A stretch of DNA of 32,870 nt from Ignavibacteria bacterium (GTDB taxonomy: Bacteria; Bacteroidota; Ignavibacteria; Tepidaquicellales; OLB5). Shown piece after piece: positions 4,207-24,593 of the stretch (position 1 is the stretch's first letter; every line of letters begins with the position of its first letter). The stretch is from assembly GCA_014879675.1 (NCBI GenBank), contig JACSRQ010000178.1, forward strand, positions 1-32,870, read 5' to 3'. Position numbers and translations under genes: made by a program. The notes under the pieces were generated by a model. The model was given only the letters and a program-made list of their open reading frames with translations, did no database searches and had not been told where the DNA came from.

Positions 4207-7200
4207 GTGAGTAATCTCAACGGTTCCCCGCGTATAATGGTTGTTGAAGATGAAGGCATTATAGCCCAGGATATCAAGAATTGTCTTGAAGGCCTTGGCT
4301 ACGTAGTGCCTGATGTTGTATTTACCGGAAGAGAGGCGATCCTCCGTGCGGAGGAGCTGCGCCCTGACCTTGTGTTGATGGATATTGTGCTAAAAGGCGA
4401 GATCGACGGTATTGAGACCGCAGCCGAGATCAGGAAAAAATACAATATTCCCATTGTTTACCTTACGGCATATGAGGATGACAAAACACTCAAAAGAGCT
4501 AAGCTTACTGAGCCTTTAGGCTATATATTAAAACCCTTCGAAGAGAGATATCTCCGTTCAAGCATCGAAATGGCGCTGTATAAGCACCAGATGGAAACCA
4601 AGCTCAAGGAAAATGAACGCTGGCTAAGCGCTATTCTTAAAAGTGTTGGTGATGCCGTTATTGTTAGTGATGAATACGGCTTCATTAAGTTCCTTAATCC
4701 CGTAGCCGAAACCTTAACAGGGTGGACGCTTCCAGAAGTTATCGGCAAACGCGTTACAGAGCTGCTCAGGCTTTTGGATGAAGATACCCGCGAGCCGATC
4801 AAAAATCCCATCGAAAGAGTACTATCCGAAAACATTGTTATCGGCAGAAGTAATCACACCGTATTAATTGCGCGTGACGGCAGGGAGATATCTATCGACC
4901 ACAGCTCATCACCGCTGCGTGATGATAAAGGGCGTATAACCGGCGCCGTATTGATCATTCAGGATATTACCGAAAGGAAGATATCTGAAACTGCGCTTCG
5001 TGAAAGCGAAAACAAGTTCAGGAACCTGTTCGATTTTGCGACTGATGCAATATTCGTACAGTCGCTCAACGGGAGGATCATTTCCGTAAACAACCAGGCA
5101 TGTAAGCTCCTGGGTTATACCAAGGATGAGCTTGCTACCATGAAGTTTTCGGAGCTGATAAACGAAAACATAATTGATAATACCTTTGCCATTTACTCTT
5201 CGTTAAAGGAAAAAGGTAATTACCAGTTCGAAACCCAATACAAAAAGAAAGACAGCGCGTTTGTAGATGTAGAGATCAGTATGCGGCTGATAAAGCTGCT
5301 TGATGAAGAGGTTGTTCAGCTGTTTGTCCGCGATATAACCGAAAGAAAGCTTGCACAGGAAAAGATTGATATGCTTGCGCAGGCAATTAAAGGTATAGCC
5401 GAGTGTGTCAGCATTACCGATCTTGACGGCAGGATAATTTTTGTGAACGATGCGTTTGAAAGAACTTACGGCTATACTAAAGATGAGATACTGGGCAGAC
5501 CGATAAATGTTGTTAGAAGCAGCAGGAATCCATATGTATTAAATGATGAAATTCTCGAGCAGACCAATAAAGGCGGATGGCAGGGCGAAATTGATAACCG
5601 CGCCAAAGATGGCAGGGAGTTCCCCGTGCAGCTTTCGACCTCGATGCTTAGGAATGAAAAAGGCACAACCATTGCCCATATTGGAATTGCAACGGATATT
5701 ACTGAGAGGAAAAAAGCAGAAGCAGCTCTTAAACAAAGTGAAAAGAGATACCAGGACCTGTATGACAGCGCCCCGGATATGTATTTTTCAATATCTCCTG
5801 AGGGCCTCGTGAGGTCGGTAAACCGCTTTGGTGCAGAGTACCTTGGATTCAGTATTGATTCGCTGATCGGCAAAGAAGTATGGAGCCTCGTTCATATTGA
5901 TGATATTGCCGAGGTGAAAGGCAAGATAGAAGATATATTTTCAAGAAAAGTTGAAAGTGCTAACCTTGAGTTCAGAAAGATCCGTAAGGATGGCAGTATA
6001 ATATGGGTAAACGAAAGTACGCGGCTAATTTCAGATGACAATGGCAATCCGAAGGAACTGTTCATAATCTGCAGGGATATTACGGCTAATAAAGAGTACC
6101 AGATTGCGCTGCTTGACAGTGAGAAGAAATACAGGAACCTGACACAGAATGCACCTGTATCCGTGGCAAGGTTTTCTATGTTAACAAATGATTTTGAATA
6201 TGCCAACGACGAGTTTGCGCGCCAAATGGGATGCTCTGTAGAAGAATACAGCAGGCTGCCAAGGAATGTTAAGACTAACATAATCTACAGTGAAGACAGG
6301 AAAAAAGTTCAGGAAAACTATGAACTTTGGAAACATGACGGCTTTAAAGCCATACTGCATTTTGATTACAGGATACTGAACCGAAAGAATGAGCTGCTGT
6401 GGCTGGATACATTTATATACGCTGATTTTGATGAATCAGGCCGCGCAATTATGATGAACGAGATCTGCGTTGATATTACCGAAAGAAAAAAAGCTGAACT
6501 GGCGATAATAGCTAGTGAAAAGAAATACAAAAACCTTGCGGCCAATGCTCCTATTGCTGTAACACAGATATCGGGAGATACACTTAAGTATGATTATGTT
6601 AATTCAGAATTCGTCCGCCAGACCGGATTTACTAAGGAGGAGTATAATTCACTTGGCAGTGAAGAGTTGAAGGCAATGGCGTACTCTGAAGACAGGTTCA
6701 GGGTTTCCGAATTCTGGAAAAAATGGAAGGATGATGGATTCAAAGATACACAACATATTGATTACAGGATATACAACCGGTTTGGAGACCTGTTATGGAT
6801 AGACACATTCCTTTTCGCTGATTTTGATGATGACGGAAAAGTGATCTCGATCAACCAGATATGTATTGATATCACCGAACAGAAGAGCGCCCAGGAAAAG
6901 ATCCTCGAAAGTGAAAACAAATATAAGAATCTAGCCGCAAACGCACCCGTTGCTGTAACAAGGGTTATTCTTGCAAGCGGCGCATATGATTTTGTGAATG
7001 AAGAGTTTACCAGGCAATCGGGTTATACGATGGAAGCATTTAATAGCCTTGAAGATCCCGACCTGATCGAAATGATCCACAAAGATGACAGGGAAAAAGT
7101 ATTCAGGTTTTACAGGGATTGGGCTGAAAAGAATTACACCGGTACTCAGCATATTGATTACCGTATTGTGAATAAAACCACCGGTGTAGTTTGGCTTGAT

Positions 7201-11608: not shown

Positions 11609-12775
11609 ATGCTCAAATTCTTGATAATTTTGTTGTTTTTTCTCACTTCGGGGGCAGCGTTAACAATTTCTCAGCCCGTTGCTAAATTTGCGGCAATTGG
11701 TGATTATGGCAGATGGTACACCGAAGGTGAAGCGCTGGTATCGGAAATGGTACACAATTGGAATCCGGATTTCATAGTTACTCTTGGTGATAATAATTAT
11801 GAGTACGGGGCGGATTCAACCATCGATTCAAACATAGGTCAGTTCTACCATGATTATATCCATCCATATACAGGGGTCTTCGGTGCCGGTTCAGCTGTCA
11901 ACAGATTCTTCCCCAGCCTTGGCAACCACGATTGGCTGACGGATAGCGCAAGGCCATACTTTAATTTTTTCACTCTTCCCGGCAATGAAAGGTATTATGA
12001 TTTCATAAAAGGCAATTGCCACTTTTTTGTTATCGATAGCGATGTGAATGAACCTGACGGTATAACCGCAAGCTCTGTTCAGGCAAATTGGCTTAGAAAT
12101 GGTTTAGCAGCAAGTAATACAAGATTCAAAATAGTGTACTTCCACCATCCGCCGTACTCTTCAGGGCAGCATGGCAATAACTACGATATGCGCTGGCCAT
12201 TTAAAGAGTGGGGGGCTACAGTTGTACTTTGCGGCCATGAACATAATTATGAACGCCTTGTTGATGGTACCGGTATGACATATTTTATCAACGGCCTCGG
12301 CGGCAAAGACTGGCGTGATTTTGGAGTGATCGTTCCGGAAAGCCGATACCGATTTACTTCCAATTACGGCGCGATGCTTATTACATCTTACAATGATAGT
12401 ATCAACTTTAGATTCTATTCAGTACCTGACTCACTGAAGGATGACACAACATTTGTTTTTAAGCCGATAGGTATTGAGCTGATTTCAACTGTTCCAGAAG
12501 AATTTGCTCTAGAGCAGAATTATCCCAATCCGTTTAATCCGGCAACAATGATCCGATTTTCAGTAATGCCAAATGCCAAAGCTCAAATGTCAAAAGTTGA
12601 GCTGATAATATATGATGTGCTTGGCAGGAAGATCAAAGAGCTTGTTAATGAAGAACTGAATTCCGGCACATACGAAGTACTTTGGGATGCTTCGGCTTAT
12701 CCAAGCGGTGTGTATTTTTATTCGTTGAGCACTCAATTGGGCACAATAACCCGGAAAATGGTTCTGACAAAGTAA
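11609..12775 (+). CDS. Secreted purple-acid-phosphatase-like metallophosphoesterase with T9SS sorting domain
   Basis: Predicted outer-surface or secreted phosphatase. A signal peptide covers residues 1-21. The catalytic domain (~26-285) shows all five purple acid phosphatase metal motifs: GDYG (Asp32), GDNNY (Asp61 and Tyr64, the tyrosine that gives these enzymes their colour), GNHD (Asn106-His107), VYFHH (His179/180) and GHEH (His210, His212). Length and spacing fit the small, tartrate-resistant type. A linker leads to the type A T9SS C-terminal sorting domain from ~296 (PEEFALEQNYPNPFNP to the end RKMVLTK), which should direct export through the outer membrane. That sorting domain contains the 7-nt repeat tract described separately. 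It may serve phosphate scavenging; the substrate is not deducible. Confidence 0.93.
   Translation: MLKFLIILLFFLTSGAALTISQPVAKFAAIGDYGRWYTEGEALVSEMVHNWNPDFIVTLGDNNYEYGADSTIDSNIGQFYHDYIHPYTGVFGAGSAVNRFFPSLGNHDWLTDSARPYFNFFTLPGNERYYDFIKGNCHFFVIDSDVNEPDGITASSVQANWLRNGLAASNTRFKIVYFHHPPYSSGQHGNNYDMRWPFKEWGATVVLCGHEHNYERLVDGTGMTYFINGLGGKDWRDFGVIVPESRYRFTSNYGAMLITSYNDSINFRFYSVPDSLKDDTTFVFKPIGIELISTVPEEFALEQNYPNPFNPATMIRFSVMPNAKAQMSKVELIIYDVLGRKIKELVNEELNSGTYEVLWDASAYPSGVYFYSLSTQLGTITRKMVLTK
12564..12600 (+). repeat. Heptamer-repeat tract in sorting-domain coding sequence, copy A
   Basis: After 'taa' come tandem 7-mers tgccaaa, tgccaaa, gctcaaa, tgtcaaa, then agttga. The 37-nt tract is shared almost base for base with three other genes in the window and encodes MPNAKAQMSKVE within the T9SS sorting domain of the phosphatase. 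Confidence 0.8.
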
Positions 12776-12897
12776 AAATTTTGACAAAAACTGTCTGTTT
12801 CAACATGATTTTTGTGAACCCCTAAATTATCCCTTATGCTTTAATTCAATTTGTTGTATATTTTGGCTTTACTAACCAACAAACTAACAAATCACAA

Positions 12898-14919
12898 ATG
12901 AAAAGACTTATTCAATCTCTGAGTAAGGCTGCCAACCTTTTTTTCCTCGTCTTTGCAGTAGTTTCGGGAATATTATTATTTCAGGCACAGGTCCCGCCGG
13001 GGCATGTGTTTGATGATAACAATCCTAATATTGAGCAGCCTACACTTGAATCTTTCTCACATTTCAATTCTAACCTGGGTGATCAGCCTGATGTAGTTAC
13101 AATTTCAGATTTCGACAATTTTGATGTCGGAATTGATAACTACGAACAGTACGGTTCTTCAAATCCGCTTAACCCGCTGTGGTTTTTCTTCGGTGCCAAT
13201 GCAAGCCCGCAGAATGCAAGGGGTACAACAAACGGCGGATTGAACTGGTACCTTTCAAATCCAAGCTACCCGGGAGGAACATGCTGCGACCCGTGGGCTG
13301 CACATACAGGCAGCGGCGTGCTGATATATGCCTCGGGTGTTAACGGGCAGTATGTCTACCGTTCAACCAATAACGGTATCACATGGAGCGCGCCGATACT
13401 TTCGGTAAGCGGAAACGACAGGAACCATGTATCGGCTGAATATACCGGTACAGGCCCCTTCGCAAATTATGTTTATGCAGCCATGACACCCGGTAACTTC
13501 GGAAGAAGTACTGATGCAGGCTTAACATGGACAACAACATTTTCCCCGAGCAACGCATTGCCGGGTGCTTACATAGCTGTTGGCCCCAACGGCACAACAA
13601 ACGGCGGATGTGTGATGTATGTAACCAATACAGGCTCCGATGCTTCGGGTTCAAGAGTTTATAATTTTTACCGCTCAACCAACGGCGGCGCAAACTTTAC
13701 ATTAATGTCCAGCCAGTCAGGGTGGTCAGGGTTTGTTGGTACTTATGCCGGTGGAAGAAATAATATTAATAACGCAAGAACCGCGCCGCATCCAAAAATT
13801 GCTATGGATAACAGCAACGGCCCTAACAGGGGCAGGTTGTATTTTATTAATGCGTCTAACGATCCTCCGGGTTCAGGTAATAAGCCGGATATATGGCTCC
13901 GTTACTCTACTGACCAGGGCGCAACATGGAGTGCAAGAGTTATTGTAAATGATAACCCCAATCCAACAGCCAGCGATCAGTGGTTCCCTGAAATATGGTG
14001 CGAAGGAACAACAGGAAAACTTTATATTCATTGGTACGATGACCGCGCTAATCCATCGAACTTCACAACAGATATTTATGCTACATACACTACAAATGGC
14101 GGCCAATCTTTTGCTACAAGCCAGAGATTGACTAACCAGTCATTTGTATTTCCAAATCCGCCCTGCTCTCCCGGTTGTTACCGCGGAGATTACACCACGA
14201 TGATGGCGAACAATCCAAAAGTTGGATTCAGCGTTTGGGGCGATCACAGGAACGGAACAGCGCTGAACATGGGTTCATATTTCCCTGATTTCGCCATGAG
14301 GGTTTCTCCTAATGCATTCGGGATGAACGGTATCAACGATAGCCAGTTTGTGTATGTTACAGTTCCGGCAGTTAAGTTATATAGTGATACCGCGCTGTTC
14401 ACGGCAACGGTAACAAATCCGCCGGGTTCAGGCACTATTACTCTCGACCTGCTGAATAAAACCACTAACACAGCACAGAACAGGTTGCTTACTTATCCTG
14501 ATTCACTCAGGTTGCGCATAAAAACTTCGGGCGGCGTGCCAAACGGCGGTTATACTGTTAGAGTAGTAGGCAACGGACCTAACGGTACTCCGGTTCACGA
14601 AAGATTTATTAATATCAATGTTGGATTTGTTGGCATTGTAAACCAGAATCAGCCTGCGGAATACTCGCTAGGGCAGAACTATCCCAATCCGTTTAATCCT
14701 TCAACCAAAGTCAGCTTCAGCATTGTGAACAGCGGCTTTGTGAATGTGAGCGTATATGATATTTCGGGAAAGCTCATCAGCAATTTGGTGAACCAGAACC
14801 TGAAGACCGGAACATATGAATATGAATGGAACGCAAAGGACTATCCCAGCGGAGTTTATTTCTACAGGATAACCACACCCGGCTTTACGGATACAAAGAA
14901 AATGATACTTGTGAAGTAG
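12898..14919 (+). CDS. Secreted Asp-box (BNR/sialidase-like) propeller protein with T9SS sorting domain
   Basis: Exported protein of 673 residues. A signal peptide covers ~1-31. The body (~60-480) carries repeated Asp-box motifs of the S/T-x-D/N-x-G-x-x-W/F type: RSTNNGITW (~155), RSTDAGLTW (~203), RSTNGGANF (~259), YSTDQGATW (~336) and YTTNGGQSF (~397). These are found in sialidases and many non-catalytic propellers. The Arg triad and Tyr/Glu of a sialidase active site cannot be assigned with confidence, so an enzyme function is not claimed. A beta-sandwich-like region (~485-580) precedes the T9SS sorting domain (EYSLGQNYPNPFNPSTKVSF to KKMILVK). That sorting domain lacks the heptamer tract. 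Upstream, TATATTTTGG (12857-12866) resembles a -7 box. A terminator follows at 14946. Confidence 0.88.
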   Translation: MKRLIQSLSKAANLFFLVFAVVSGILLFQAQVPPGHVFDDNNPNIEQPTLESFSHFNSNLGDQPDVVTISDFDNFDVGIDNYEQYGSSNPLNPLWFFFGANASPQNARGTTNGGLNWYLSNPSYPGGTCCDPWAAHTGSGVLIYASGVNGQYVYRSTNNGITWSAPILSVSGNDRNHVSAEYTGTGPFANYVYAAMTPGNFGRSTDAGLTWTTTFSPSNALPGAYIAVGPNGTTNGGCVMYVTNTGSDASGSRVYNFYRSTNGGANFTLMSSQSGWSGFVGTYAGGRNNINNARTAPHPKIAMDNSNGPNRGRLYFINASNDPPGSGNKPDIWLRYSTDQGATWSARVIVNDNPNPTASDQWFPEIWCEGTTGKLYIHWYDDRANPSNFTTDIYATYTTNGGQSFATSQRLTNQSFVFPNPPCSPGCYRGDYTTMMANNPKVGFSVWGDHRNGTALNMGSYFPDFAMRVSPNAFGMNGINDSQFVYVTVPAVKLYSDTALFTATVTNPPGSGTITLDLLNKTTNTAQNRLLTYPDSLRLRIKTSGGVPNGGYTVRVVGNGPNGTPVHERFININVGFVGIVNQNQPAEYSLGQNYPNPFNPSTKVSFSIVNSGFVNVSVYDISGKLISNLVNQNLKTGTYEYEWNAKDYPSGVYFYRITTPGFTDTKKMILVK

Positions 14920-14977
14920 AGCTTAAGATATAATTTTGTTTTTTGAAAGCCTGCAATTCTATTGCGGGCTTTTTTTT
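14920..14977 (+). repeat. Terminator-containing direct repeat, left copy
   Basis: About 57 bases starting agcttaagat, with aattttgttttttgaaag and the terminator hairpin, recur 316 bp downstream at 15236-15292. The copies differ mainly at two positions near the start and in the hairpin loop. The copies flank a 258-bp array of small palindromes. Confidence 0.8.
14946..14977 (+). terminator. Intrinsic terminator of the Asp-box protein gene
   Basis: aaagcctgcaat pairs with attgcgggcttt (one G-T pair) around a TCT loop, followed by a run of T. It lies about 26 bp after the stop codon at 14919. Confidence 0.88.
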
Positions 14978-15031
14978 GTTCGGGTAGAATGTAGTTGTTG
15001 GTGAAAAGAAAAACGATAGGGGTAAAATGCT

Positions 15032-15055
15032 GTTGTTGGTGATAACACCAACAAC
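15032..15055. repeat. Hairpin palindrome in the first intergenic array
   Basis: gttgttggtg, loop ataa, caccaacaac: a perfect 10-bp stem. A further gttgttggtg at about 14994 precedes it as a direct copy of the left arm. There is no coding function and no T-tract for termination. Confidence 0.7.
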
Positions 15056-15078
15056 GGGGGGAAATCATGCTCTAAATT

Positions 15079-15114
15079 CCCCTCTGGAGAGGGGTGACAT
15101 TGCGAAGCAATGTC
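15079..15114. repeat. Pair of adjacent small hairpins
   Basis: CCCCTC-TGGA-GAGGGG (15079-15094) is followed one base later by gacattgc-gaa-gcaatgtc (15096-15114). The series continues as ctgggtgtgttgtc. Short dispersed palindromes of this look are common between genes in this phylum. No ORF uses the segment convincingly. Confidence 0.65.
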
Positions 15115-15141
15115 TGGGTGTGTTGTCACAGAATCGTTCAA

Positions 15142-15236
15142 TCGTTTCAGCAGAGTCTCTCCGCAGCAGGACTCTGCGTACGGGTTCACTTCTTTTCCAG
15201 AGTCCTGCTAACGCAAAGACTCTGGTAAGTACTGAA
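15142..15236. repeat. Double-hairpin REP/MITE-like element, copy 1 (partial)
   Basis: Starts TCGTTTCAG. Outer arms cagagtctct (15151-15160) and aaagactctg (15215-15224) and inner arms ggactctg (15169-15176) and cagagtcc (15198-15205) are complementary. The element can fold as one long hairpin or as two CAGAGTC...GACTCTG hairpins. Relative to copies 2 and 3 it ends early, at gtaagtactgaag, and lacks the CATTCCCGC palindrome on the right. Confidence 0.8.
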
Positions 15237-15292
15237 GCTTAAGATTCAATTTTGTTTTTTGAAAGCCTGCAATATAATTGCGGGCTTTTTTT
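15236..15292 (+). repeat. Terminator-containing direct repeat, right copy
   Basis: Second copy of the 14920-14977 segment, starting agcttaagattc. It contains its own hairpin (15262-15288), so a transcript passing the first terminator meets a second. It has no gene of its own directly upstream. Confidence 0.8.
15262..15292 (+). terminator. Second, duplicated intrinsic terminator
   Basis: aaagcctgcaat, loop ata, attgcgggcttt, then T-tract. The stem is the same as that at 14946 with a changed loop. Confidence 0.8.
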
Positions 15293-15366
15293 ATATCTAA
15301 AAAAATCAATAGTTTAAGCTGTGTATTTTATGACTTAGGTCATTTTATTTAATCTGCAGTATGGGT

Positions 15367-15374
15367 TATATTTG
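15367..15374 (+). promoter_or_regulatory. Bacteroidota-type -7 box upstream of the YCF48/unnamed-module gene
   Basis: TATATTTG fits TAnnTTTG exactly. A transcription start shortly after it would lie downstream of the TTG codon at 15372 and about 50 bases before ATG 15432, which supports the ATG start. No clear -33 element is seen. The 15293-15366 stretch before it is AT-rich and otherwise featureless. Confidence 0.38.
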
Positions 15375-15431
15375 AAATATCACAGAGGTAATCGTGACAA
15401 ACTCATTGGTCTCTTAACTAATACCAAAATT

Positions 15432-17915
15432 ATGAAATCCCTGAAATTATTAATCGTTTTAACATTTGTGGTAAACAGCTTTCACGTATTTTCGCAGCAG
15501 GGCTGGTATAAACTTCCAAGCGGAACAAATGCCGAGATCAAGTCTATCGCCACCATTAACTCCAAATCATGGGCTGTTGGCGCCGGGGGACTGATAATTC
15601 GAACAACAAATGGCGGATTGAACTGGGAAATTCAGAACTCGGGAACAACCGGCAGTCTGAATTCCATAATATTTGCGTTCAGGCCTGATACGGTTGGTTA
15701 CATTGTTGGTGATAACGGGAAGATCCTGAGAAGTACAAATTCAGGCGAAAGCTGGATATCTGTAAACAGCGGTACCACGGCTAACCTCAATGCAGTATGT
15801 TCGTTAACGGATACTATTTCAGTTCTTGCAGTTGGAGATAATGGCAAGATAATCAGAAGCAGTAATTCAGGATTAACCTGGATAAACATCAATTCAAACG
15901 TTACAACAAAACTCAACTTTGCAGCTGTAAGCTGGCAATATGATATTTTCATAACAGGAGATGGTGGAAAAATACTTCACTCATTTGATTCCGGCTTTTC
16001 ATGGAACCAATCTTCAAGCGGTACGACAAATGATCTGTTGGGAGTGGCGGTTTGCCAATACTGGAATCCCGGACCGAAAGTAATTGTTGTTGGAAAAGGC
16101 GGCAGGATATTGAGATCAACCAACAACGGAGGTAACTGGGTGGCTTTATCAAGCGGAACAACACAGGATCTTAGGTCGATTGTAACTACATATTTATACT
16201 CGGACACGATATATTATTATCTCGCATGCGGCACAGGCGGAACAATGATCGAATCAACAGACGGCATTAACTGGAATTCAAGGGGAGTTCCTTTTTCAGA
16301 TAACCTGAACTGCATTACACTTCAGGATTTTAATACTGGTTATGGTACAGGAGCATATGGTACGATAATCAAATCTTCCGGAAATTATTTCTATGCCGAT
16401 AGTAAACTGCTTGATGCAAACACGATCAGTACGTTTTTCAGAAATGACGGCGGGTTTAATATGCTGAAAAGTCCATCTTCGGCAGGATTTGAATGGCCAA
16501 AAGGCACAGGTTTGCACGCAAGGTATGCGTCTGGACTTTGGCTTGGTGCAATGGTGAATAATGAAGTGAGAGTTGCAACTGCGCAATACGATAACGAATA
16601 CTATCCCGGTTTTACGGATGCCGGTTCTGTACCGCATGGCAGGAATGATACCAATTACAGGATATTCAAAATGATCAGCGGTAGCCCTGGGGCAGACAGG
16701 CAATCATGGCCAAACTCCCTGCTTGGCAATTCTGACCAGGGTGCGCCTGTATACTATGACAGCAGTTCATCTTCATGGAAACCACTGGATTTTGGCAACC
16801 AGACAATGTTTTATTCATATACTGATAGCTACCCGGAATCTCACATTAATTCTTTTGGAGGTAATACACTTCCGCTTAAAGCAGATGTTAAGCAATTGAA
16901 TTTTTCTGTTGATAAATCCGGTGCATTGGGCAATACCGTATTTTCACAATACACCATTATAAACAGAAGTACGGATGTGTGGAATGATCTTTATATAACC
17001 CTCTGGTCTGATGATGACCTTGGCAGCGGGGAAGATGATAAAGTAGGATGTGATTCTTCGCTGGGACTGGGCTACACATACAATTCCGAAAATGTTGATC
17101 CGGTTTACGGAACGGCACCGCCCGCAGTAGGTTTTTTACTGCTTAAAGGAGCCTACCTTTATTCAGGAAGCAGCAATGACACTGCTGTTTTTTGCCGGAA
17201 TAAGCAGAAGACAACCCTCACCGGCTACAGAGATCTGGGAATGAAGACATTTAATTTTGCGATCAATGGTGATCCTACAAACTCTGATCCGAATAATTGC
17301 TTTGAAACTTATAACCTGATGAAAGGTTTATACGTCGATGGAAACACGATATATCATCCCGAAGGATTTGTAACCACACTGCCTTTCTCCGGTGATCCGA
17401 TCTCAAACACAGGCTGGATAGCGCCATACGGCGCAGATTTCCGTTTATATGTAACTACCGGTCCGGTAAATATGAATCCCGGAGATACCCAGGTGATCGT
17501 TACCGCACAGATCATTGGCAGGGGAATAAATAATAAGAAATCTATAGATGTGCTCAAAACATACTCAAGAGAGATCAAAGACTATTATGCAAACTGCTAT
17601 AGCTTAGATCCTATTGGTATTTCAGAAGAGCACAATTATGCCGTGAAGTTCTCACTTGAACAAAATTACCCGAACCCCTTTAACCCGGTTACGGTTATTA
17701 AATATAGTATTCCGTATGAAAGCATGGTATCCATTAAGATCTTCGATATTACGGGAAAAGAAGTTTATAATATGAATGGATCAAGAATTCCCGGAAGTTA
17801 TGAAACAAGATTTGACGGGAGCAATTTAGCCTCCGGTGTTTATTTTTATACTATCCAGGCGATCTCGGATAAAGCTATATTTAATGAAACGAAAAAGATG
17901 GTACTTTTGAAGTAG
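15432..17915 (+). CDS. Secreted YCF48-like propeller plus unnamed acidic module with T9SS sorting domain
   Basis: Exported protein of 828 residues from ATG 15432. This start gives a clean signal peptide (MKSLKLLIVLTFVVNSFHVF). The in-frame TTG 60 bases upstream overlaps a likely promoter box and would bury the signal, so it is rejected. Residues ~24-320 form a propeller with repeats such as RTTNGGLNW, RSTNSGESW, RSSNSGLTW, HSFDSGFSW and RSTNNGGNW, as in YCF48/BNR-like proteins. Residues ~316-720 are a module not recognised from known families, with ASGLWLGAMV, LPLKADVKQLNF, DDDLGSGEDDKVGCD (~527-541) and PPAVGFLLL. The same order of motifs occurs in the protein at 22839-24593. The sorting domain from ~738 (KFSLEQNYPNPFNP) lacks the heptamer tract. 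No function is claimed. The terminator at 17936 closes the unit. Confidence 0.88.
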   Translation: MKSLKLLIVLTFVVNSFHVFSQQGWYKLPSGTNAEIKSIATINSKSWAVGAGGLIIRTTNGGLNWEIQNSGTTGSLNSIIFAFRPDTVGYIVGDNGKILRSTNSGESWISVNSGTTANLNAVCSLTDTISVLAVGDNGKIIRSSNSGLTWININSNVTTKLNFAAVSWQYDIFITGDGGKILHSFDSGFSWNQSSSGTTNDLLGVAVCQYWNPGPKVIVVGKGGRILRSTNNGGNWVALSSGTTQDLRSIVTTYLYSDTIYYYLACGTGGTMIESTDGINWNSRGVPFSDNLNCITLQDFNTGYGTGAYGTIIKSSGNYFYADSKLLDANTISTFFRNDGGFNMLKSPSSAGFEWPKGTGLHARYASGLWLGAMVNNEVRVATAQYDNEYYPGFTDAGSVPHGRNDTNYRIFKMISGSPGADRQSWPNSLLGNSDQGAPVYYDSSSSSWKPLDFGNQTMFYSYTDSYPESHINSFGGNTLPLKADVKQLNFSVDKSGALGNTVFSQYTIINRSTDVWNDLYITLWSDDDLGSGEDDKVGCDSSLGLGYTYNSENVDPVYGTAPPAVGFLLLKGAYLYSGSSNDTAVFCRNKQKTTLTGYRDLGMKTFNFAINGDPTNSDPNNCFETYNLMKGLYVDGNTIYHPEGFVTTLPFSGDPISNTGWIAPYGADFRLYVTTGPVNMNPGDTQVIVTAQIIGRGINNKKSIDVLKTYSREIKDYYANCYSLDPIGISEEHNYAVKFSLEQNYPNPFNPVTVIKYSIPYESMVSIKIFDITGKEVYNMNGSRIPGSYETRFDGSNLASGVYFYTIQAISDKAIFNETKKMVLLK

Positions 17916-17935
17916 GCTGGGGTCTGAAGTCTTGT

Positions 17936-17969
17936 AAAAAAGCCCGCTGCTAAATTGCGGGCTTTTTTT
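17936..17969 (+). terminator. Intrinsic terminator
   Basis: aaaaaagcccgc, loop tgctaaatt, gcgggctttttt: a 12-bp stem with A- and T-tracts, 20 bp after the stop codon at 17915. The GC part of the stem resembles the two upstream terminators. Confidence 0.9.
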
Positions 17970-17987
17970 ATGAGGTAAAGAGTATTC

Positions 17988-18114
17988 TCGTTTCAGCAGA
18001 GTCTCTCCGCAGGAGGTCTCTGCGTACGGGTTCACTTTTTTCCCAGAGCCCTGCTAACGCAGAGACTCTGGAAAGTACCGAGTTCGTTTGTCATTCCCGC
18101 GAAGGCGGGAATCT
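17988..18114. repeat. Double-hairpin REP/MITE-like element, copy 2
   Basis: Begins TCGTTTCAGCAGAGTCTCT. Outer arms are cagagtctct (17997-18006) and agagactctg (18061-18070); one inner pair is changed relative to copy 3. It continues gaaagtaccgagttcg and ends with the perfect hairpin attcccgc-gaag-gcgggaat (18093-18112). The whole 127-bp unit is nearly the same as copy 3, 277 bp downstream. No transposase is present. Confidence 0.85.
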
Positions 18115-18208
18115 TGAGTATACGTATCATCAAAACCTGGCAGGCTATACATCATTTCTTCTCCACATATTTCGCCCGCTTCGGGGCTCAGGTCATTGTT
18201 TCTATCTC

Positions 18209-18253
18209 AGCGATGGGCTGCACCCATCGCTATTATATACCACCCCTTCGGGG
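18209..18253. repeat. Two further palindromes between element copies 2 and 3
   Basis: agcgatggg-ctgca-cccatcgct (18209-18231) is a 9-bp perfect stem. ccccttcgggg (18243-18253) is a short stem with a stable tetraloop, flanked by tatata on the left and gatata on the right. A related degenerate fragment, cgcccgcttcggggc, lies at about 18173. These are non-coding, REP-like units. Confidence 0.7.
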
Positions 18254-18264
18254 CTATGATATAA

Positions 18265-18388
18265 TCGTTTCAGCAGAGTCTCTCTGCAGGAGGACTCTGC
18301 GTTGGGTTCCAATTTTCCAGAGTCCTGCTAACGCAGAGACTCTGGAAAGTACCGAGTTCGTTTGTCATTCCCGCGAAGGCGGGAATCT
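18265..18388. repeat. Double-hairpin REP/MITE-like element, copy 3
   Basis: Outer arms cagagtctct (18274-18283) and agagactctg (18335-18344), inner arms ggactctg and cagagtcc, then gaaagtaccgagttcg and attcccgc-gaag-gcgggaat (18367-18386). This is the best preserved copy. The remaining gap to the next gene (18389-18586) is AT-rich and shows no gene, terminator or convincing promoter. Confidence 0.85.
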
Positions 18389-18586
18389 ATTCTTCCGCTT
18401 CTAGGTCTTTTTAATTTTACCTCTTGCCGTTGATTAGAACAACAAGATCGCAAATCACAGACAGGTCACGAAGTGCTTTCCTAAATGTCTGCGCTGGTTA
18501 CAAAATTCTAAATGGTATTAATCTAAAAACATGCATATTATTGAACTTCAGGAAGGGTATGCCGAACATAAACCCGGGGCTTAAAC

Positions 18587-20335
18587 ATGAAAAAACTAAT
18601 ACTGCTTTCAGCGTTAATATTATTTTTTACCGCTGCTGCAAATTCACAGAACTGGATCACAACAGGCGGCAACCTGCAGCGAAACGGGATATCCGAAATT
18701 ACCGGACCCGGCAGCGTGGCTTCCGCGTACTGGACGGTGAACAGCACAAACACCACAGCGTGGGGGAATTCCGTTTACACTTACAACGATAAATTCGTTA
18801 CCTCGCGAGTTATACTCTCTCCATATACAGGCAGGGTTGAGCTACGCAATATAAACACAGGCGCGTTGATTTGGGAAAAGATGATAAATGCCTCTTCGCG
18901 AATGTATGCAGTTGGATTTAACGAAGACGCGGTTTATGCGCATGACTATAATACAGGCATTCTCTACGCGCTGAACGTATCGGATGGCTCGGTTAAATGG
19001 TCTATTACTTCAGATATGTTCCCCGGCAATACCGGTTTGCTTTTTGCATGCGATGGCGACCCGATAGATAAAGGCCGCCGCATAAATAAGAATACGGGAG
19101 TCGCAAGGTGGACAAACAATTACACAATCCCCGTCGGTCCCGATGGCGGATTCTGCATTTACGGTAATACATATTACCATTGGACAGGTTCGGTTGTCAC
19201 ACCAAAAAAACTTATAGCGATCGATCTTACCACCGGCGCCACAAAATATACTTCGGCGGATCTGCCGGGAGATGGCGACCAGGAAAATGATCTGTGCATC
19301 GGTCCGGATGGCACAATTTACATTTGCCGCGATGGCGGTTCATTGTATGCATTCAGAGATAACGGCAGCGCATTTGTTCAGCAGTGGGTACATACACCCG
19401 GCTATGTTGTAAAGGGTGTCGGAAAAGACGGGACGTTGTATGCTTCAAATATCAACGACCCATCACAGCAAGGGAATAGTAATGTGTACAGGCTGGATCC
19501 GGCAAACGGCAATATGCTTGACTCCGCCCAAACACGCACACCGATGGTTTATTTTGCGGCAGGGGCAGATTCAACCGTATATATCGCAACCGGCGAAACA
19601 TCCAATGGCAGATATGTTGCGTTTTCACCAAACCTGCAAACAGTTAAATGGACTTTGAATACTCCGTACAATTATTACAGCGGGCCATCGCTATCAAAAG
19701 ACGGAATTTTTATAGCCGTGGGTTCCGGCACTGAAATTAAAGCTTACAAGCCTACTATAAACATTAAGCCCGTCGCTGATTTCAGGGCAAGTAAAACGCT
19801 GATCTCAATGAGCGAACCAATTTCATTTTTTGATCAGTCTTCATTCAGCCCGGTTTCATGGTCGTGGCAGTTCCCGGGTTCCAATACGCCGGTTTCAACG
19901 CAGCAGAATCCGGCAAACATTACATACAGCTCTTCCGGAACTTACCAGGTAACTTTGGTTGCAGCTAATGCTTTCGGTAATGATACATTAATCAGAACAT
20001 GTTATATAACAGTGCAGAATGAAACCGGTATCAGCATAACAGGAAATGAAATACCCGGTAAGTACGAGCTTGAACAGAATTATCCTAATCCCTTTAATCC
20101 GGCAACTACGATCCAATTTTCAATAATGCCAAATGCCAAAGCTCAAATGTCAAAGGTTGAGTTAACAGTGTTTGATGTGCTTGGCAAAAAAGTCGAGATG
20201 CTTGTTAATGAAGAAATGGAGCCCGGTACTTATGAAGTAAGCTGGGATGCATCAGACTATCCAAGCGGTGTATATTTTTATACATTAACATCGGGTGATT
20301 TCAAACAAACAAAAAAAATGCTGCTGATCAAATGA
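18587..20335 (+). CDS. Secreted PQQ-like propeller with PKD domain and T9SS sorting domain
   Basis: Exported protein of 582 residues. A signal peptide covers 1-20 (MKKLILLSALILFFTAAANS). Residues ~25-390 form a propeller of the PQQ-like/quinoprotein type, with repeating strands such as NTGALIWEKMI, LYALNVSDGSVKW, GPDGTIYI, SLYAFRDNG and GKDGTLYAS. The tryptophan-docking and metal sites of true PQQ dehydrogenases are not evident, so it is probably a structural or binding protein. A PKD domain spans ~395-477, with SWSWQFPGS and YSSSGTYQVTLVAANAFG. The T9SS sorting domain runs from ~493 (YELEQNYPNPFNP) to KKMLLIK and contains the heptamer tract. The ATG has no clear Shine-Dalgarno. It is probably the first gene of a unit with the next two, with gaps of 36 and 3 bp. 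Confidence 0.9.
   Translation: MKKLILLSALILFFTAAANSQNWITTGGNLQRNGISEITGPGSVASAYWTVNSTNTTAWGNSVYTYNDKFVTSRVILSPYTGRVELRNINTGALIWEKMINASSRMYAVGFNEDAVYAHDYNTGILYALNVSDGSVKWSITSDMFPGNTGLLFACDGDPIDKGRRINKNTGVARWTNNYTIPVGPDGGFCIYGNTYYHWTGSVVTPKKLIAIDLTTGATKYTSADLPGDGDQENDLCIGPDGTIYICRDGGSLYAFRDNGSAFVQQWVHTPGYVVKGVGKDGTLYASNINDPSQQGNSNVYRLDPANGNMLDSAQTRTPMVYFAAGADSTVYIATGETSNGRYVAFSPNLQTVKWTLNTPYNYYSGPSLSKDGIFIAVGSGTEIKAYKPTINIKPVADFRASKTLISMSEPISFFDQSSFSPVSWSWQFPGSNTPVSTQQNPANITYSSSGTYQVTLVAANAFGNDTLIRTCYITVQNETGISITGNEIPGKYELEQNYPNPFNPATTIQFSIMPNAKAQMSKVELTVFDVLGKKVEMLVNEEMEPGTYEVSWDASDYPSGVYFYTLTSGDFKQTKKMLLIK
20124..20160 (+). repeat. Heptamer-repeat tract in sorting-domain coding sequence, copy B
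   Basis: Same tract as at 12564-12600 with one base change (aaaagttga to aaaggttga). Units: tgccaaa, tgccaaa, gctcaaa, tgtcaaa. Confidence 0.8.
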
Positions 20336-20371
20336 CGAAGTCAATTGTTTAGCCAACAATAACAATAAGCT

Positions 20372-21622
20372 ATGAAAACAATATTTATATTCTTATTCAC
20401 TGCCGCAACATTATACTCGCAGGGCTGGTTTGTGCAAACTACATTCAGTCCCGCGCAGTCACTGCAGACGGTCAGGTTCTACGACCAAAACACAGGCTAC
20501 ACTACCGCGCCCTTGTATAACGGGTCTAATTTCAATATTCATAAAACCACCAACGCCGGGCAGAACTGGAGCGATCAGAATTCTGGTTATACCTCGATGC
20601 GGTTCATGGCTATATGGATGCGCCATCCCGATACAGTGTATATGAGCGGGAACGACGGAGTAATAATCAGAACTGTAAACGGCGGGGCCAATTGGGTTAC
20701 TGTTAATTTTGAGTCAACTTTGCAGTTGTGGGGATTGTTTTTCACAAACCAGCAAACCGGATATGCTTCAGGCTCAACAGGCAGGATTATGAAAACTACC
20801 AATGCCGGCGTGAACTGGACGAACCTAAGCTCTCCCACGCAGACTTCGCTAAACTCAATTTACTTCATCAATGAAAATACCGGATTCATTTCCGGCTATG
20901 CCATCGCGCTTAAAACAACCGATGCAGGCGCTTCGTGGGTGAATATGAATGCACCATCGATCAGCGGCTTTGAGAATTTCAGGGAAATATTTTTCTTTAA
21001 TGAAAACCTGGGGCTTTATGTTTCGGATGCAGGAAGAATAGGCAAGACCACAAACAGCGGAGCTAACTGGACTCTTGTGAATTCCGGTACAACACAATCT
21101 CTGTTTGGGGTTTACTTCATTGATATGAATACAGGTTATGCATGCGGCAATGCAGGCGCTATCATACGCACAACTGATGGCGGCGATAACTGGTTTCCTC
21201 AAACCTCCCCATTGAATGAGATCCTGACAGACATTTGGTTCACCTCTGCATCTACTGGTTATATTTCAAACTGGTCGGGGAAGATACTGAAAACCACCAA
21301 CGGGGGAATCACTTTTGTTGAACCTATCAGCAGCGAAATTCCAAATGCTTATCGACTAGAGCAGAACTACCCCAACCCGTTTAATCCGGCAACTACGATC
21401 CGGTTTTCTGTAATGCCAAATGCCAAAGCTCAAATGTCAAAAGTTGAATTGACAGTATTTGATGTGCTCGGCAAGCAAATCTCAACACTTGTTAATGAAG
21501 AAATGAATCCGGGCACTTATGAAGTGAACTGGGATGCATCGGATTTTCCCAGCGGGATTTATTTTTATGAATTGCGTTCAGGCAGTTTCAGTCAAACAAA
21601 AAAAATGATATTGCTCAAATAG
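20372..21622 (+). CDS. Secreted YCF48-like seven-repeat propeller with T9SS sorting domain
   Basis: Exported protein of 416 residues. A signal peptide covers ~1-16 (MKTIFIFLFTAATLYS). Seven turn motifs mark the blades: KTTNAGQNW, RTVNGGANW, KTTNAGVNW, KTTDAGASW, KTTNSGANW, RTTDGGDNW and KTTNGGITF. Each is preceded by a NTGY/LGLY strand with glycine. The count of seven fits a closed propeller. YCF48-like repeats were named from a photosystem II assembly factor, but in T9SS cargo they are common and their role is generally unknown. The sorting domain from ~325 (YRLEQNYPNPFNP) to KKMILLK contains the heptamer tract and is very close to that of the upstream PQQ-like protein. It lies 36 bp after that gene and 3 bp before the phosphoesterase gene. 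Confidence 0.9.
   Translation: MKTIFIFLFTAATLYSQGWFVQTTFSPAQSLQTVRFYDQNTGYTTAPLYNGSNFNIHKTTNAGQNWSDQNSGYTSMRFMAIWMRHPDTVYMSGNDGVIIRTVNGGANWVTVNFESTLQLWGLFFTNQQTGYASGSTGRIMKTTNAGVNWTNLSSPTQTSLNSIYFINENTGFISGYAIALKTTDAGASWVNMNAPSISGFENFREIFFFNENLGLYVSDAGRIGKTTNSGANWTLVNSGTTQSLFGVYFIDMNTGYACGNAGAIIRTTDGGDNWFPQTSPLNEILTDIWFTSASTGYISNWSGKILKTTNGGITFVEPISSEIPNAYRLEQNYPNPFNPATTIRFSVMPNAKAQMSKVELTVFDVLGKQISTLVNEEMNPGTYEVNWDASDFPSGIYFYELRSGSFSQTKKMILLK
21411..21447 (+). repeat. Heptamer-repeat tract in sorting-domain coding sequence, copy C
   Basis: Identical over 37 bases to the tract at 12564-12600. The flanking sorting-domain sequence is also similar but shows more differences. Confidence 0.8.
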
Positions 21623-21625
21623 AAT

Positions 21626-22756
21626 ATGTCCTCATTGCTTTATAAATGTGCCCACGTACTGCAGGCTTTGTTAGTTTGTGGTTTTGTTTCCATGCTGTTC
21701 GCAGGACAGGCGGATTCAACCGAAAATATCGATACTTCAGGGATTGGACTTGATGGACCGTATATTTTCTACAGTGATGACCGTATAATTTCAAAACAGG
21801 TTGTTAGCATCGGCGGCCAATTTATCGCGCAGACCGATACTTTTGCCGCAGGTGATAATCCGATGTTTAAGTGCAACCTCCCCGGCTCCAATGGATTCCA
21901 ATTTACACTCGCCAAAAGTATTCCCTTTCAGGAATCAGTTTACCCAATGCCGGAAAAGATCATAGCAATTTCCGATATCGAAGGGAATATTGTTCCGTTC
22001 AGAGAATTCCTGATCAACAATGGTGTAATTGATAATGCTAATAAGTGGATATTCGGCAAGGGACATCTTGTCATCCCCGGCGATGTTTTTGACCGCGGTC
22101 TGAATGTTACCGAGTGCCTGTGGTTCATATATTACCTCGAGCAGGATGCAGAAAAAATCGGCGGGAAGGTTCATTTCATTTTGGGAAACCACGAAATTAT
22201 GAACATGAACGGTAACATTAAGTATGTAAGGAAAAAATATACCGACAATGCCAATCTGCTCGGCGCAGATTACAATCATCTTTATACACCTGCAACTGAG
22301 CTTGGCCGCTGGCTTGAAAGCAAAAATATAGTTGAGAAGATCGGCGACTATTTGTTCCTGCATGGGGGAATTTCGAAAGAGGTAAATGAACAGAATGCGG
22401 CAATTGAATCCATAAACAGTACAGCACGTGAGTATTATTTCCGCAGCAAGGATGCAAAGCTGTATGGCGATACACTTGTAAAACTTCTGTATAACTCAAA
22501 GCTTTGCCCGTTCTGGTACAGGGGTTATGTTGATGAAACGATTCTGGAAACGGATCTTGATAACACGCTAAACGCCTTCGCCGTTAACAAGATCGTTGTG
22601 GGGCATACCATTGTTGCTGATGTGCGTTATTTCTACAATAAAAAAGTGATCGGTATTGATACCGATCATGCGGAAGGTGATACCGAAGGCCTGCTTATAG
22701 AAAATGGTGTTGAGTACAGGATTGAAAGATCAGGTTCCCGTACACCTGTAAACTGA
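21626..22756 (+). CDS. Exported PPP-like (Shewanella-like phosphatase group) metallophosphoesterase
   Basis: Predicted periplasmic or surface phosphoesterase of 376 residues. A signal segment covers ~8-28. After a ~80-residue N-terminal region, the calcineurin-like core has SDIEGN (117-121 region), GDVFDRG (152-158), GNHE (187-190), HGGIS (246-250) and GHT (326-328). This order is that of the PPP phosphatase superfamily, closest to bacterial Shewanella-like members. In most PPP enzymes motif I is GDxHG; here the His metal ligand is Glu119. I recall other Bacteroidota relatives with the same SDIEG form, so it may be a subfamily trait. There is no T9SS sorting domain, unlike its neighbours. ATG 21626 lies 3 bp after the stop of the propeller gene, which points to translational coupling. 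The substrate is unknown. Confidence 0.88.
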   Translation: MSSLLYKCAHVLQALLVCGFVSMLFAGQADSTENIDTSGIGLDGPYIFYSDDRIISKQVVSIGGQFIAQTDTFAAGDNPMFKCNLPGSNGFQFTLAKSIPFQESVYPMPEKIIAISDIEGNIVPFREFLINNGVIDNANKWIFGKGHLVIPGDVFDRGLNVTECLWFIYYLEQDAEKIGGKVHFILGNHEIMNMNGNIKYVRKKYTDNANLLGADYNHLYTPATELGRWLESKNIVEKIGDYLFLHGGISKEVNEQNAAIESINSTAREYYFRSKDAKLYGDTLVKLLYNSKLCPFWYRGYVDETILETDLDNTLNAFAVNKIVVGHTIVADVRYFYNKKVIGIDTDHAEGDTEGLLIENGVEYRIERSGSRTPVN

Positions 22757-22794
22757 AACTCTTTTTTTGCATTCCCGTATAACATAGAATTTGT

Positions 22795-22802
22795 TATCTT
22801 TG
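22795..22802 (+). promoter_or_regulatory. Bacteroidota-type -7 box
   Basis: TATCTTTG fits TAnnTTTG exactly, within ttgttatctttggaac, 37 bp before ATG 22839. A similar ttgttgtatattttgg precedes the Asp-box gene at 12898. The T-run ending in TTTG at 22769 is too far upstream for the usual -33 spacing. Confidence 0.4.
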
Positions 22803-22838
22803 GAACATAATTGCTTTGCAACCTTAATTTAAACTAAA

Positions 22839-24593
22839 ATGAATAAGAACTTACTCTTTGTTTTGCTTTTTCTCACGGCTCTTATAATTGTTTCCTCCAT
22901 CAATGCCGATGTTCCGAAAGATTATTCACCAGTATCAACTAGCGCTTCAGTGCAGACAGGCTTCCTGCAGACGAACAATCTGAATGTCGCCGTAAGCTCT
23001 GATGGAATAATCAGCTATGACAGGTACACATTCACAACAGGTACCGCCGGTTTGATCTGGCCTGTTTCTACAAACCAGAGGCTGACAATGGATTATGCCG
23101 CCGGATTATGGATTGGCGCCAAAGTCGGACCCTCAAGAGAGCTTAGAACTGCAGCTTCGCTGCATGCTTCGCATTATTCACCGGGTAATATTCCGGTAAT
23201 TGGGCAGGTTCCGCCCACATCAGTTTGCAGCGATCCCCGTTTAAAGCTTTATCTTGTTAGCCTTGACGACCCGAATCTTTTTAACGGCGGTGTCAGGAAT
23301 AAAGTAGCAGGAAATAGAACCTATTCCATTTTATATGACTCCTGGGCTGCTTGGCCGGTTGATCTTGGGGCACCCTATATAGAGGTGAATGGAATTCCCG
23401 GTTACCAGCCGGAATTGAACGGCGACCGCCCGGGAATCTGGCACACTACTGCAAGGCCCAATGAACTTATGTTCTCGGTTTACATGGACTACACAAACTG
23501 TACAGGCGGATTACACACTTCAGCAATCAGTCTGCCCGGCGGAACGCTTCCCCTCGGGGTTGAAGTTCAGCAGCTTACTTTTTCATTTTCAGATAGTCCT
23601 TACAGAGATATGTATTTCAGCAAGTGGCGTATTATAAATAAAAGCAGTCTTAGCTGGGACAGCGTTTATATTGCATTGGTTGATGATGGGGATATTGGCA
23701 ACGGAGAAGATGATGCCGCGGGCTGCGATACTACCAGGGACCTTGGATACATTTACAACTTTGACAATAATGATGTTGATTATGGTGCTTCGCCTCCTGC
23801 TTTGGGTTACAGGATATTGCAGTCGCCAATGAGATTTACAGGCAACAACCAGGATACTGCAAAGCTCCCGTATGGGAATTATACGGGTTACAAGTTAACC
23901 GGAATGAGCGCATATAATGTTTTTGTAAGTACTGGCGGATCCTGTTTGGGAGATCCAAATAATGCCGCTGCTGCTTATAATTTTCTGAAAGGCAAAGACG
24001 GATGCGGTAACACAATGATAAACTGGGCAAGGGAACATCCTACAACTTACAAATATTCCGGAATAGCTTTTCAGCAACTGGGTTGGTATGATAGTTCAGC
24101 AGGAGATAAAAGACAGATCTTAAGCTGCGGTCCCTTTTCGATGAATTCCGGTAATGAGCAGTACATTGTTTCGGGAGTAATCGCAGGCAGAAGTTCAAGT
24201 AACTTAACAAGTTTATCAGCAATGATAGATAATTCCAATCAGGCAAAATTGTTCTACAACAATAGCTTCGGGGGTACACCCATAGGTATTACTCAAACCT
24301 CAACCGAAGTGCCGGTTAGGTTTTCGCTGGAGCAGAACTATCCCAACCCGTTTAATCCGGCAACTACGATCCGATTTTCTGTAATGCCAAATGTCAAAGC
24401 TCAAATGTCAAAAGTTGAGTTGACAGTTTACGATGCACTTGGCAGGTCGGTGGCAATGCTTGTTAATGACCGCCTCGCTGCAGGTACATATTCATATGAA
24501 TGGAATGCAGCAAACTTTCCCAGCGGCATTTATTTTTATGAGTTGAAAACAGAGGGATTCACTAAGACCAAAAAAATGGTAATGATAAAATAA
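22839..24593 (+). CDS. Secreted protein with unnamed acidic module and T9SS sorting domain
   Basis: Exported protein of 584 residues with a signal peptide at ~1-23 (MNKNLLFVLLFLTALIIVSS). Residues ~40-480 form a module not recognised from known families. It shares an ordered set of motifs with the C-terminal half of the protein at 15432-17915: AAGLWIGAKV, LPLGVEVQQLTFSF, INKSSLSWDSVYIALVDD, GNGEDDAAGCD with LGYIYN (~287-310), and PPALGYRIL. The acidic GxGEDDxxGCD motif could bind calcium, but this is a guess from composition. The sorting domain from ~488 (RFSLEQNYPNPFNP) to KKMVMIK has the heptamer tract. The gene has its own promoter-like box, and a terminator follows 30 bp after the stop. 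Confidence 0.87.
   Translation: MNKNLLFVLLFLTALIIVSSINADVPKDYSPVSTSASVQTGFLQTNNLNVAVSSDGIISYDRYTFTTGTAGLIWPVSTNQRLTMDYAAGLWIGAKVGPSRELRTAASLHASHYSPGNIPVIGQVPPTSVCSDPRLKLYLVSLDDPNLFNGGVRNKVAGNRTYSILYDSWAAWPVDLGAPYIEVNGIPGYQPELNGDRPGIWHTTARPNELMFSVYMDYTNCTGGLHTSAISLPGGTLPLGVEVQQLTFSFSDSPYRDMYFSKWRIINKSSLSWDSVYIALVDDGDIGNGEDDAAGCDTTRDLGYIYNFDNNDVDYGASPPALGYRILQSPMRFTGNNQDTAKLPYGNYTGYKLTGMSAYNVFVSTGGSCLGDPNNAAAAYNFLKGKDGCGNTMINWAREHPTTYKYSGIAFQQLGWYDSSAGDKRQILSCGPFSMNSGNEQYIVSGVIAGRSSSNLTSLSAMIDNSNQAKLFYNNSFGGTPIGITQTSTEVPVRFSLEQNYPNPFNPATTIRFSVMPNVKAQMSKVELTVYDALGRSVAMLVNDRLAAGTYSYEWNAANFPSGIYFYELKTEGFTKTKKMVMIK
24382..24418 (+). repeat. Heptamer-repeat tract in sorting-domain coding sequence, copy D
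   Basis: Same tract with one change: the second unit is tgtcaaa instead of tgccaaa, giving MPNVKAQMSKVE. Confidence 0.8.

Follow-up and report, generated by a model that had tools for sequence, protein, structure and literature searches.

Unrelated dispersed repeats, including a four-unit heptanucleotide cassette, in one loop of T9SS sorting domains of an Ignavibacteria bacterium

Repeats of bacterial genomes are usually thought to persist mainly between genes. Rickettsial palindromic elements, RPEs (Ogata, Claverie and co-workers), are dispersed repeats of intergenic DNA that also lie in frame in coding sequences, where they add short peptides to the proteins. The T9SS sorting domain is cleaved off after export. 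GTAG-tagged REPs and RAYT were treated by Di Nocera and others 2013 (PMC3733652), where RPE-4 and RPE-6 are also discussed, and intragenic GTAG-REPs are known. Heptanucleotide repeats are represented by the tandem repeat TAACTGA in Beggiatoaceae (PMC4679880), GGGAATC of Xanthomonas and GGGGAYT of Nostoc (PMC4692102), as well as by cyanobacterial STRR. In-frame genic repeats are already known from Rickettsia RPEs and GTAG-REPs. Searches of the open-licence literature found neither a description of repeats within the sorting loops of T9SS proteins nor one of recurrent hits on, or a concentration in, a single loop of a secretion signal.

The window is the whole stretch of DNA analysed, namely 32,870 nucleotides of contig JACSRQ010000178.1 of an Ignavibacteria bacterium (assembly GCA_014879675.1; draft genome, 3.79 Mb, 255 contigs). 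The following features were annotated in it:

11609..12775, + strand: secreted calcineurin-like phosphoesterase with a C-terminal T9SS sorting domain (PF00149, PF18962, TIGR04183)
12527..12608, + strand: block of about 80 nt (PNPFNPATxIRFSV + tract + KVEL), ends approximate, common to 20087-20168, 21374-21455 and 24345-24426
12566..12594, + strand: 29-bp core of repeat R1 in the sorting-domain loop of gene 11609-12775, encoding MPNAKAQMS (pattern search, TRF)
12898..14919, + strand: BNR-repeat protein, sorting domain with the standard 10-residue loop and without the tract (family profiles, loop spacing)
15076..15096, + strand: copy of repeat R2 (ATTCCCCTCTNNAGAGGGGTG) in non-coding DNA; on other contigs, this family also lies within sorting loops
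15372..17915, + strand: Ycf48-like/BNR protein, sorting domain with the standard 10-residue loop and without the tract (family profiles, loop spacing)
18587..20335, + strand: PQQ/PKD protein with the tract in its sorting domain (family profiles)
20126..20154, + strand: R1 core in the sorting-domain loop of gene 18587-20335 (pattern search, TRF)
20372..21622, + strand: Ycf48-like protein with the tract in its sorting domain (family profiles)
21413..21441, + strand: R1 core in the sorting-domain loop of gene 20372-21622 (pattern search, TRF; predicted model)
22839..24593, + strand: protein with the tract in its sorting domain, no N-terminal domain recognised (family profiles)
24384..24412, + strand: R1 core with one substitution in the sorting-domain loop of gene 22839-24593 (pattern search, TRF)

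All six proteins scored at the C terminus above the curated family cut-offs, with 31.9-47.3 bits for TIGR04183 (cut-off 23) and 36-46.4 for PF18962 (cut-off 27). In this genome, at least 150 sorting domains were scored, with 322 candidates. The host of R1 is the T9SS type A sorting domain (TIGR04183/PF18962) with its Ig-like fold, and it differs from the usual form by a loop lengthened with repeat-derived residues. The window also encodes a sensor histidine kinase of 1788 aa that combines a receiver domain with many consecutive PAS domains (4207-9573), and a repeat, CCCGCCTTCGCGGGAATGAC, is present twice in the gap upstream of gene 18587 (18090-18109 and 18364-18383, minus strand).

An earlier note on this DNA had described a tract of 37 bases in four of these genes, and its coordinates proved correct, each copy being at most one change away from the consensus. 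At all four sites, TRF reported an array with a period of 7 and 4.3 units. The proposed consensus TGYCAAA is valid for three of the four units, while the remaining one is a constant GCT unit; the 29-bp core of R1, ATGCCAAATGCCAAAGCTCAAATGTCAAA (also given as ATGCCAAATGYCAAAGCTCAAATGTCAAA), accordingly consists of TGCCAAA, TGYCAAA, GCTCAAA and TGTCAAA, and one substitution in total was found across the four cores. The products are MPNAKAQMSKVE in three genes and MPNVKAQMSKVE in the gene with the core at 24384. The spacing between the anchors FS and V(F/Y)D is 15 residues in the domains with the tract versus 10 in the two tract-free domains; the anchors themselves mostly apply, with minor departures (one IYD, one IFD and one YS for FS).

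The tract is also less divergent than its flanks, as the note had stated: 1 of 29 columns is variable within it, compared with 8 of 39 on the left, 16 of 36 on the right, and, farther out, 71 of 90 upstream and 46 of 96 to the right. Variable third positions number 0 of 9 in the tract versus 34 of 57 outside (p = 0.0008).

The search of the draft genome and of relatives found the tract elsewhere. The 29-mer is present in 14 genomic copies within 3 mismatches, and the reversed-pattern control gave none, so R1 is not a product of chance. Five copies are located in sorting loops, the fifth of these domains being encoded on contig C103, one copy is located in a methyltransferase gene (contig C43), and the rest are mostly in non-coding DNA or at gene ends. 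A looser heptamer pattern gave 115 matches versus 2 for its control, and a scan of 225 kb revealed 12 arrays at period 7 and none at periods 6, 8, 9 and 10. R1 thereby behaves as a dispersed heptanucleotide repeat, with tandem 7-nt units and many copies, mostly intergenic. Other CAAANNN arrays differ in the number of units, and the core of R1 always has the same four. Since this GCT-bearing core is constant between genes, species and phyla, R1 behaves as a fixed cassette, which does not support the expanding repeat that had been considered. Known heptanucleotide repeats, including STRR, are likewise of 7-nt period, dispersed, mostly intergenic and partly intragenic, but R1 has a different unit and is a short fixed cassette with an interrupting GCT unit, often accompanied in other phyla by an inverted array downstream. 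Frequent period-7 arrays with a CAAA-like core were also observed in this genome (CAAATAC/CAAATAG/CAAATAA, GAAACGT and CAAAAGG, at five loci for example), and a small hairpin, CTTTC-N-GAAAGTC, adjoins some non-coding R1 copies (four loci).

The GCT-bearing array, with up to 2 mismatches, was found in 12 of 15 genomes of the same family, the genome studied included, versus 3 of 24 genomes in the remainder of the order. An exact match to CAAATGHCAAAGCTCAAATGHCAAA is present in at least 111 stretches of GTDB representatives, and the MAG labels among the matches listed comprise Patescibacteria, Deltaproteobacteria, Nitrospirae, Planctomycetota, Omnitrophota, Chloroflexota and Ignavibacteria. Among the matches listed from other phyla, an inverted heptamer array lies within 200 bp downstream at 50 of 77 loci and upstream at 1 of 77. 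To judge from this arrangement, the GCT-interrupted array across phyla appears to be a palindromic element. An inverted partner arm for R1 is common in other phyla but rare in this genus, where it was found near 2 of 38 copies; here R1 is a direct heptamer array with no stable palindromic stem, and the GTAG tag is absent from it. No match to Rfam was obtained for the seven repeat-bearing loci tested. A role of R1 as a DNA uptake signal was rejected, the copies being too few (about 14-21 per genome).

The loop measures 10 residues in four orthologues of gene 11609-12775 from the same genus, which are 74-80% identical in the N-terminal part; the tract was therefore acquired as an insert, and the longer form of 15 residues is derived. 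Together with the copies elsewhere, mostly outside genes, this agrees with the suggestion of the note that a small dispersed repeat invaded the loop. With the tract present elsewhere and the longer loop not ancestral, neither of the two outcomes that the note had named as refuting it was obtained. Like an RPE, R1 is a dispersed repeat located in frame and absent from orthologues. In the methyltransferase, 29 of 29 bases of the tract are identical between the genome studied (G000) and G005, while the flanks share 52 of 90, 43 of 63 and 25 of 27 positions upstream and 374 of 520 downstream, most segments being 58-72% identical. As G005 is another assembly, its identical tract makes an assembly artefact unlikely. 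The methyltransferase orthologues of G002, G008 and G004 are without the R1 tract; where G000 and G005 have R1 in their loop, the G008 orthologue has a different palindrome, CCTGCCTGCCGAAACGAATGTGCAGGCAGG. The flanks of the C103 copy are at background similarity (0.64-0.72), and a pair of R1 copies in G006 is encoded in proteins unrelated to those of the window; these entries are therefore independent of the window insertion. By this comparison, R1 entered sorting loops at least three times, and its independent events number about three.

The four window copies share more than the tract. Their left 39 nt are 0.85-0.97 identical, compared with a mean of 0.66 and a 99th percentile of 0.82 for all pairs of the genome sample, and this unusual likeness means that the shared unit is longer than the tract; right after the tract, similarity drops to 0.53-0.70. 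Gene conversion seeded by the repeat had been proposed, and of this proposal the copying stands: the shared block of about 80 nt points to gene conversion or domain duplication and not to four insertions. The simplest reading of the sequences is one putative insertion followed by copying of the block.

The sorting domain was modelled with AlphaFold from 66 sorting domains of the same genome (pLDDT 88.3, pTM 0.80). The tract falls between the predicted strands 19-26 and 35-43, and the model thus places the insert in the beta2-beta3 loop. Foldseek returned generic Ig-like domains, among them the mirolase CTD of T. forsythia (8qb1, E 1.8e-3) and PorU (6za2, 5.7e-3), and the predicted fold is a beta-sandwich like that of solved T9SS C-terminal domains.

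The repeat of the earlier note is real, but this loop has also received other dispersed families that are unrelated to it. Standard sorting domains have a constant spacing; many domains of this genome are longer, with loops encoding other dispersed repeats. At least three families besides R1 were found there, two of them GTAG-REP-like palindromes: R2, ATTCCCCTCTCGAGAGGGGTG...GACGGGGTGTG, with the loop peptide PLSRGVSEGRGV; R3, GTAGAGACGACCCGGCGGGTCGTCTC, with SVETTRRVVS; and R4, GTAGCACAGACATTCCTGTCTGTG, with SVAQTFLSV. R2 occupies 8 loops among 30 classified copies, R3 occupies 5 loops and is found at 14 places besides (the two strands of a palindrome being counted once), and R4 occupies 8 loops among 30 classified copies, with at least 5 further sorting-domain copies unclassified by locus. 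Searches with GTAGAGACGACCCGNCGGGTCGTCTC for R3 gave 25 matches, some copies being counted on both strands, and with GTAGCACAGACATTCCTGTCTGTG for R4 gave 49; both reversed controls gave none. R2-R4 were found in no other long gene of the genome, the remaining "ORFs" being frames of 80-113 codons made of the repeats themselves. Paralogy accounts for many of the loop copies, and the number of independent events is much lower than that of copies, probably one or two per family besides R1. Repeat-bearing loops also occur in relatives: G009 has GTAGGGAATGGTCGTGACCATTCC, G013 a palindrome with GTAG, and G015 an array of octamer-like units. For loops with PAFAETTRR, another family, R5 (CCTGCTTTCGCAGGAATGAC), was considered as the source; a mutated R3 (TCTGTAGAGACGACC) fits better, and R5 never occurs in a loop.

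R3 and R4 start with GTAG followed by a palindrome and are present in many dispersed, mainly intergenic copies, as GTAG-REPs are. In the loops, GTA is read as a valine codon, and the frame avoids the TAG stop. The difference is that PMC3733652 stresses genes of DNA synthesis and repair, and mentions neither sorting domains nor Ignavibacteria. No cognate RAYT of R3 and R4 was identified among the RAYT-like genes inspected, which carry other repeats in their flanks, and R3 and R4 are for this reason called REP-like only. RAYT was likewise rejected as the mover of R1-R4: Y1 transposases are present, but the inspected flanks carry other repeats, for example TAGCTCCGTAGGAGC and GCGATGGGCGAAGCCCATCGG. 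The RAYT-like Y1 transposases (eight loci) are flanked by REP hairpins of their own, which also include GCCCACGG...CCGTGGGC. With RPEs, the repeats described here share the intergenic and in-frame genic location and the addition of short peptides; RPEs, however, are palindromes found in many unrelated proteins. The present case concerns several unrelated repeats that recurrently settled in a single loop within a single domain family, and R1 as it occurs in this genus forms a heptamer array that has no hairpin of its own.

Loop DNA was compared with the rest of the same genome, in which sorting domains were masked. In stretches of the genome studied, which were partly picked for long domains, 17 of 24 long loops match dispersed DNA versus 0 of 37 standard loops (p = 6e-10), some of the R4 matches being sorting domains missed by the mask; non-coding R4 copies also exist in this genome. 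In a sample of 800 kb of G008, chosen without regard to repeats, the same was found for 9 of 14 long loops versus 0 of 53 standard loops (p = 5e-8). Comparison of non-coding with coding DNA of G008 gave about 5-6 convincing inserts in non-sorting genes; together with the methyltransferase loop, these indicate that the sorting loop is a preferred but not the sole place of such inserts. In samples of G002, G012, G013, G016 and G018, loops filled by repeats were few or absent, so the repeat burden differs between species.

The tract is very probably a copy of a dispersed non-autonomous repeat settled in the loop and block-copied within the cluster, one of several unrelated families that paralogues have spread. 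R1, as a four-unit heptanucleotide cassette, would have entered the beta2-beta3 loop of a sorting domain and made it five residues longer, the array staying open since no frame of that strand contains a stop. A stretch of about 80 nt (PNPFNPATTIRFSV + tract + VEL) would then have been copied among the four clustered sorting domains by gene conversion or domain duplication. R1, R2, R3 and R4 have all settled in this loop in the genus, and hundreds of paralogous sorting domains would then have spread them. The loop may collect repeats by tolerating inserts, as a predicted surface loop of a domain that is cleaved off, rather than through a preference of the repeats for that DNA, and recombination among hundreds of paralogues may add to the collection. 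It is conceivable, though doubtful, that the loop is a true genomic landing and exchange site that many dispersed repeats enter and from which recombination among hundreds of sorting domains spreads them through the secretome, with R1 as a heptamer-based mobile element of many phyla.

Duplication only, of one sorting domain or of whole genes, would make the tract ordinary loop sequence conserved by common descent. The four window copies do share the left flank (0.85-0.97) and sit in one cluster, but the core also occurs outside coding sequence, in a methyltransferase and in sorting-domain proteins that bear no relation to those of the cluster, and third positions vary less in the tract than elsewhere; contradicted by the non-coding copies, this explanation is quite improbable and holds solely for the spread among the four window genes. 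Still harder to credit is in-place, microsatellite-like slippage building the array separately in each gene with the help of a native ATTCC (Ile-Pro) seed. This genome has many related CAAANNN arrays, and for heptanucleotide repeats slippage is a mechanism already proposed (PMC4679880), but an identical GCT-interrupted order across genes, species and phyla is not expected from it, and R2-R4, which occupy the same loop, lack a tandem structure. An unlikely role is likewise assigned to selection, either for a long loop that alters handling by the T9SS or for a functional repeat DNA or RNA (protein binding, mRNA structure, recombination site). The lack of variable third positions in the tract of four genes would suit it, as would the complete identity of the methyltransferase tracts between flanks that are mostly 58-72% identical; recent copying or homogenisation accounts for this conservation too, the occupation of the same loop by unrelated sequences implies that no particular peptide is needed, and most sorting domains work without an insert.

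A secretion signal with hundreds of copies per genome has taken up repeats again and again in a single loop, which offers a countable natural record of non-coding DNA turning into protein; the choice between a tolerant sink and a preferred site becomes testable for such loops. The peptides MPNAKAQMS, SVETTRRVVS, SVAQTFLSV and PLSRGVSEGRGV in sorting domains are to be read as repeat-derived, not as functional motifs. Repeat-derived PPLTKGGQRG, RPPLVPPGRG and SFANAQD were observed within long non-sorting proteins as well (G008 sample B, at about 374404, 53617 and 122262 of the joined stretch).
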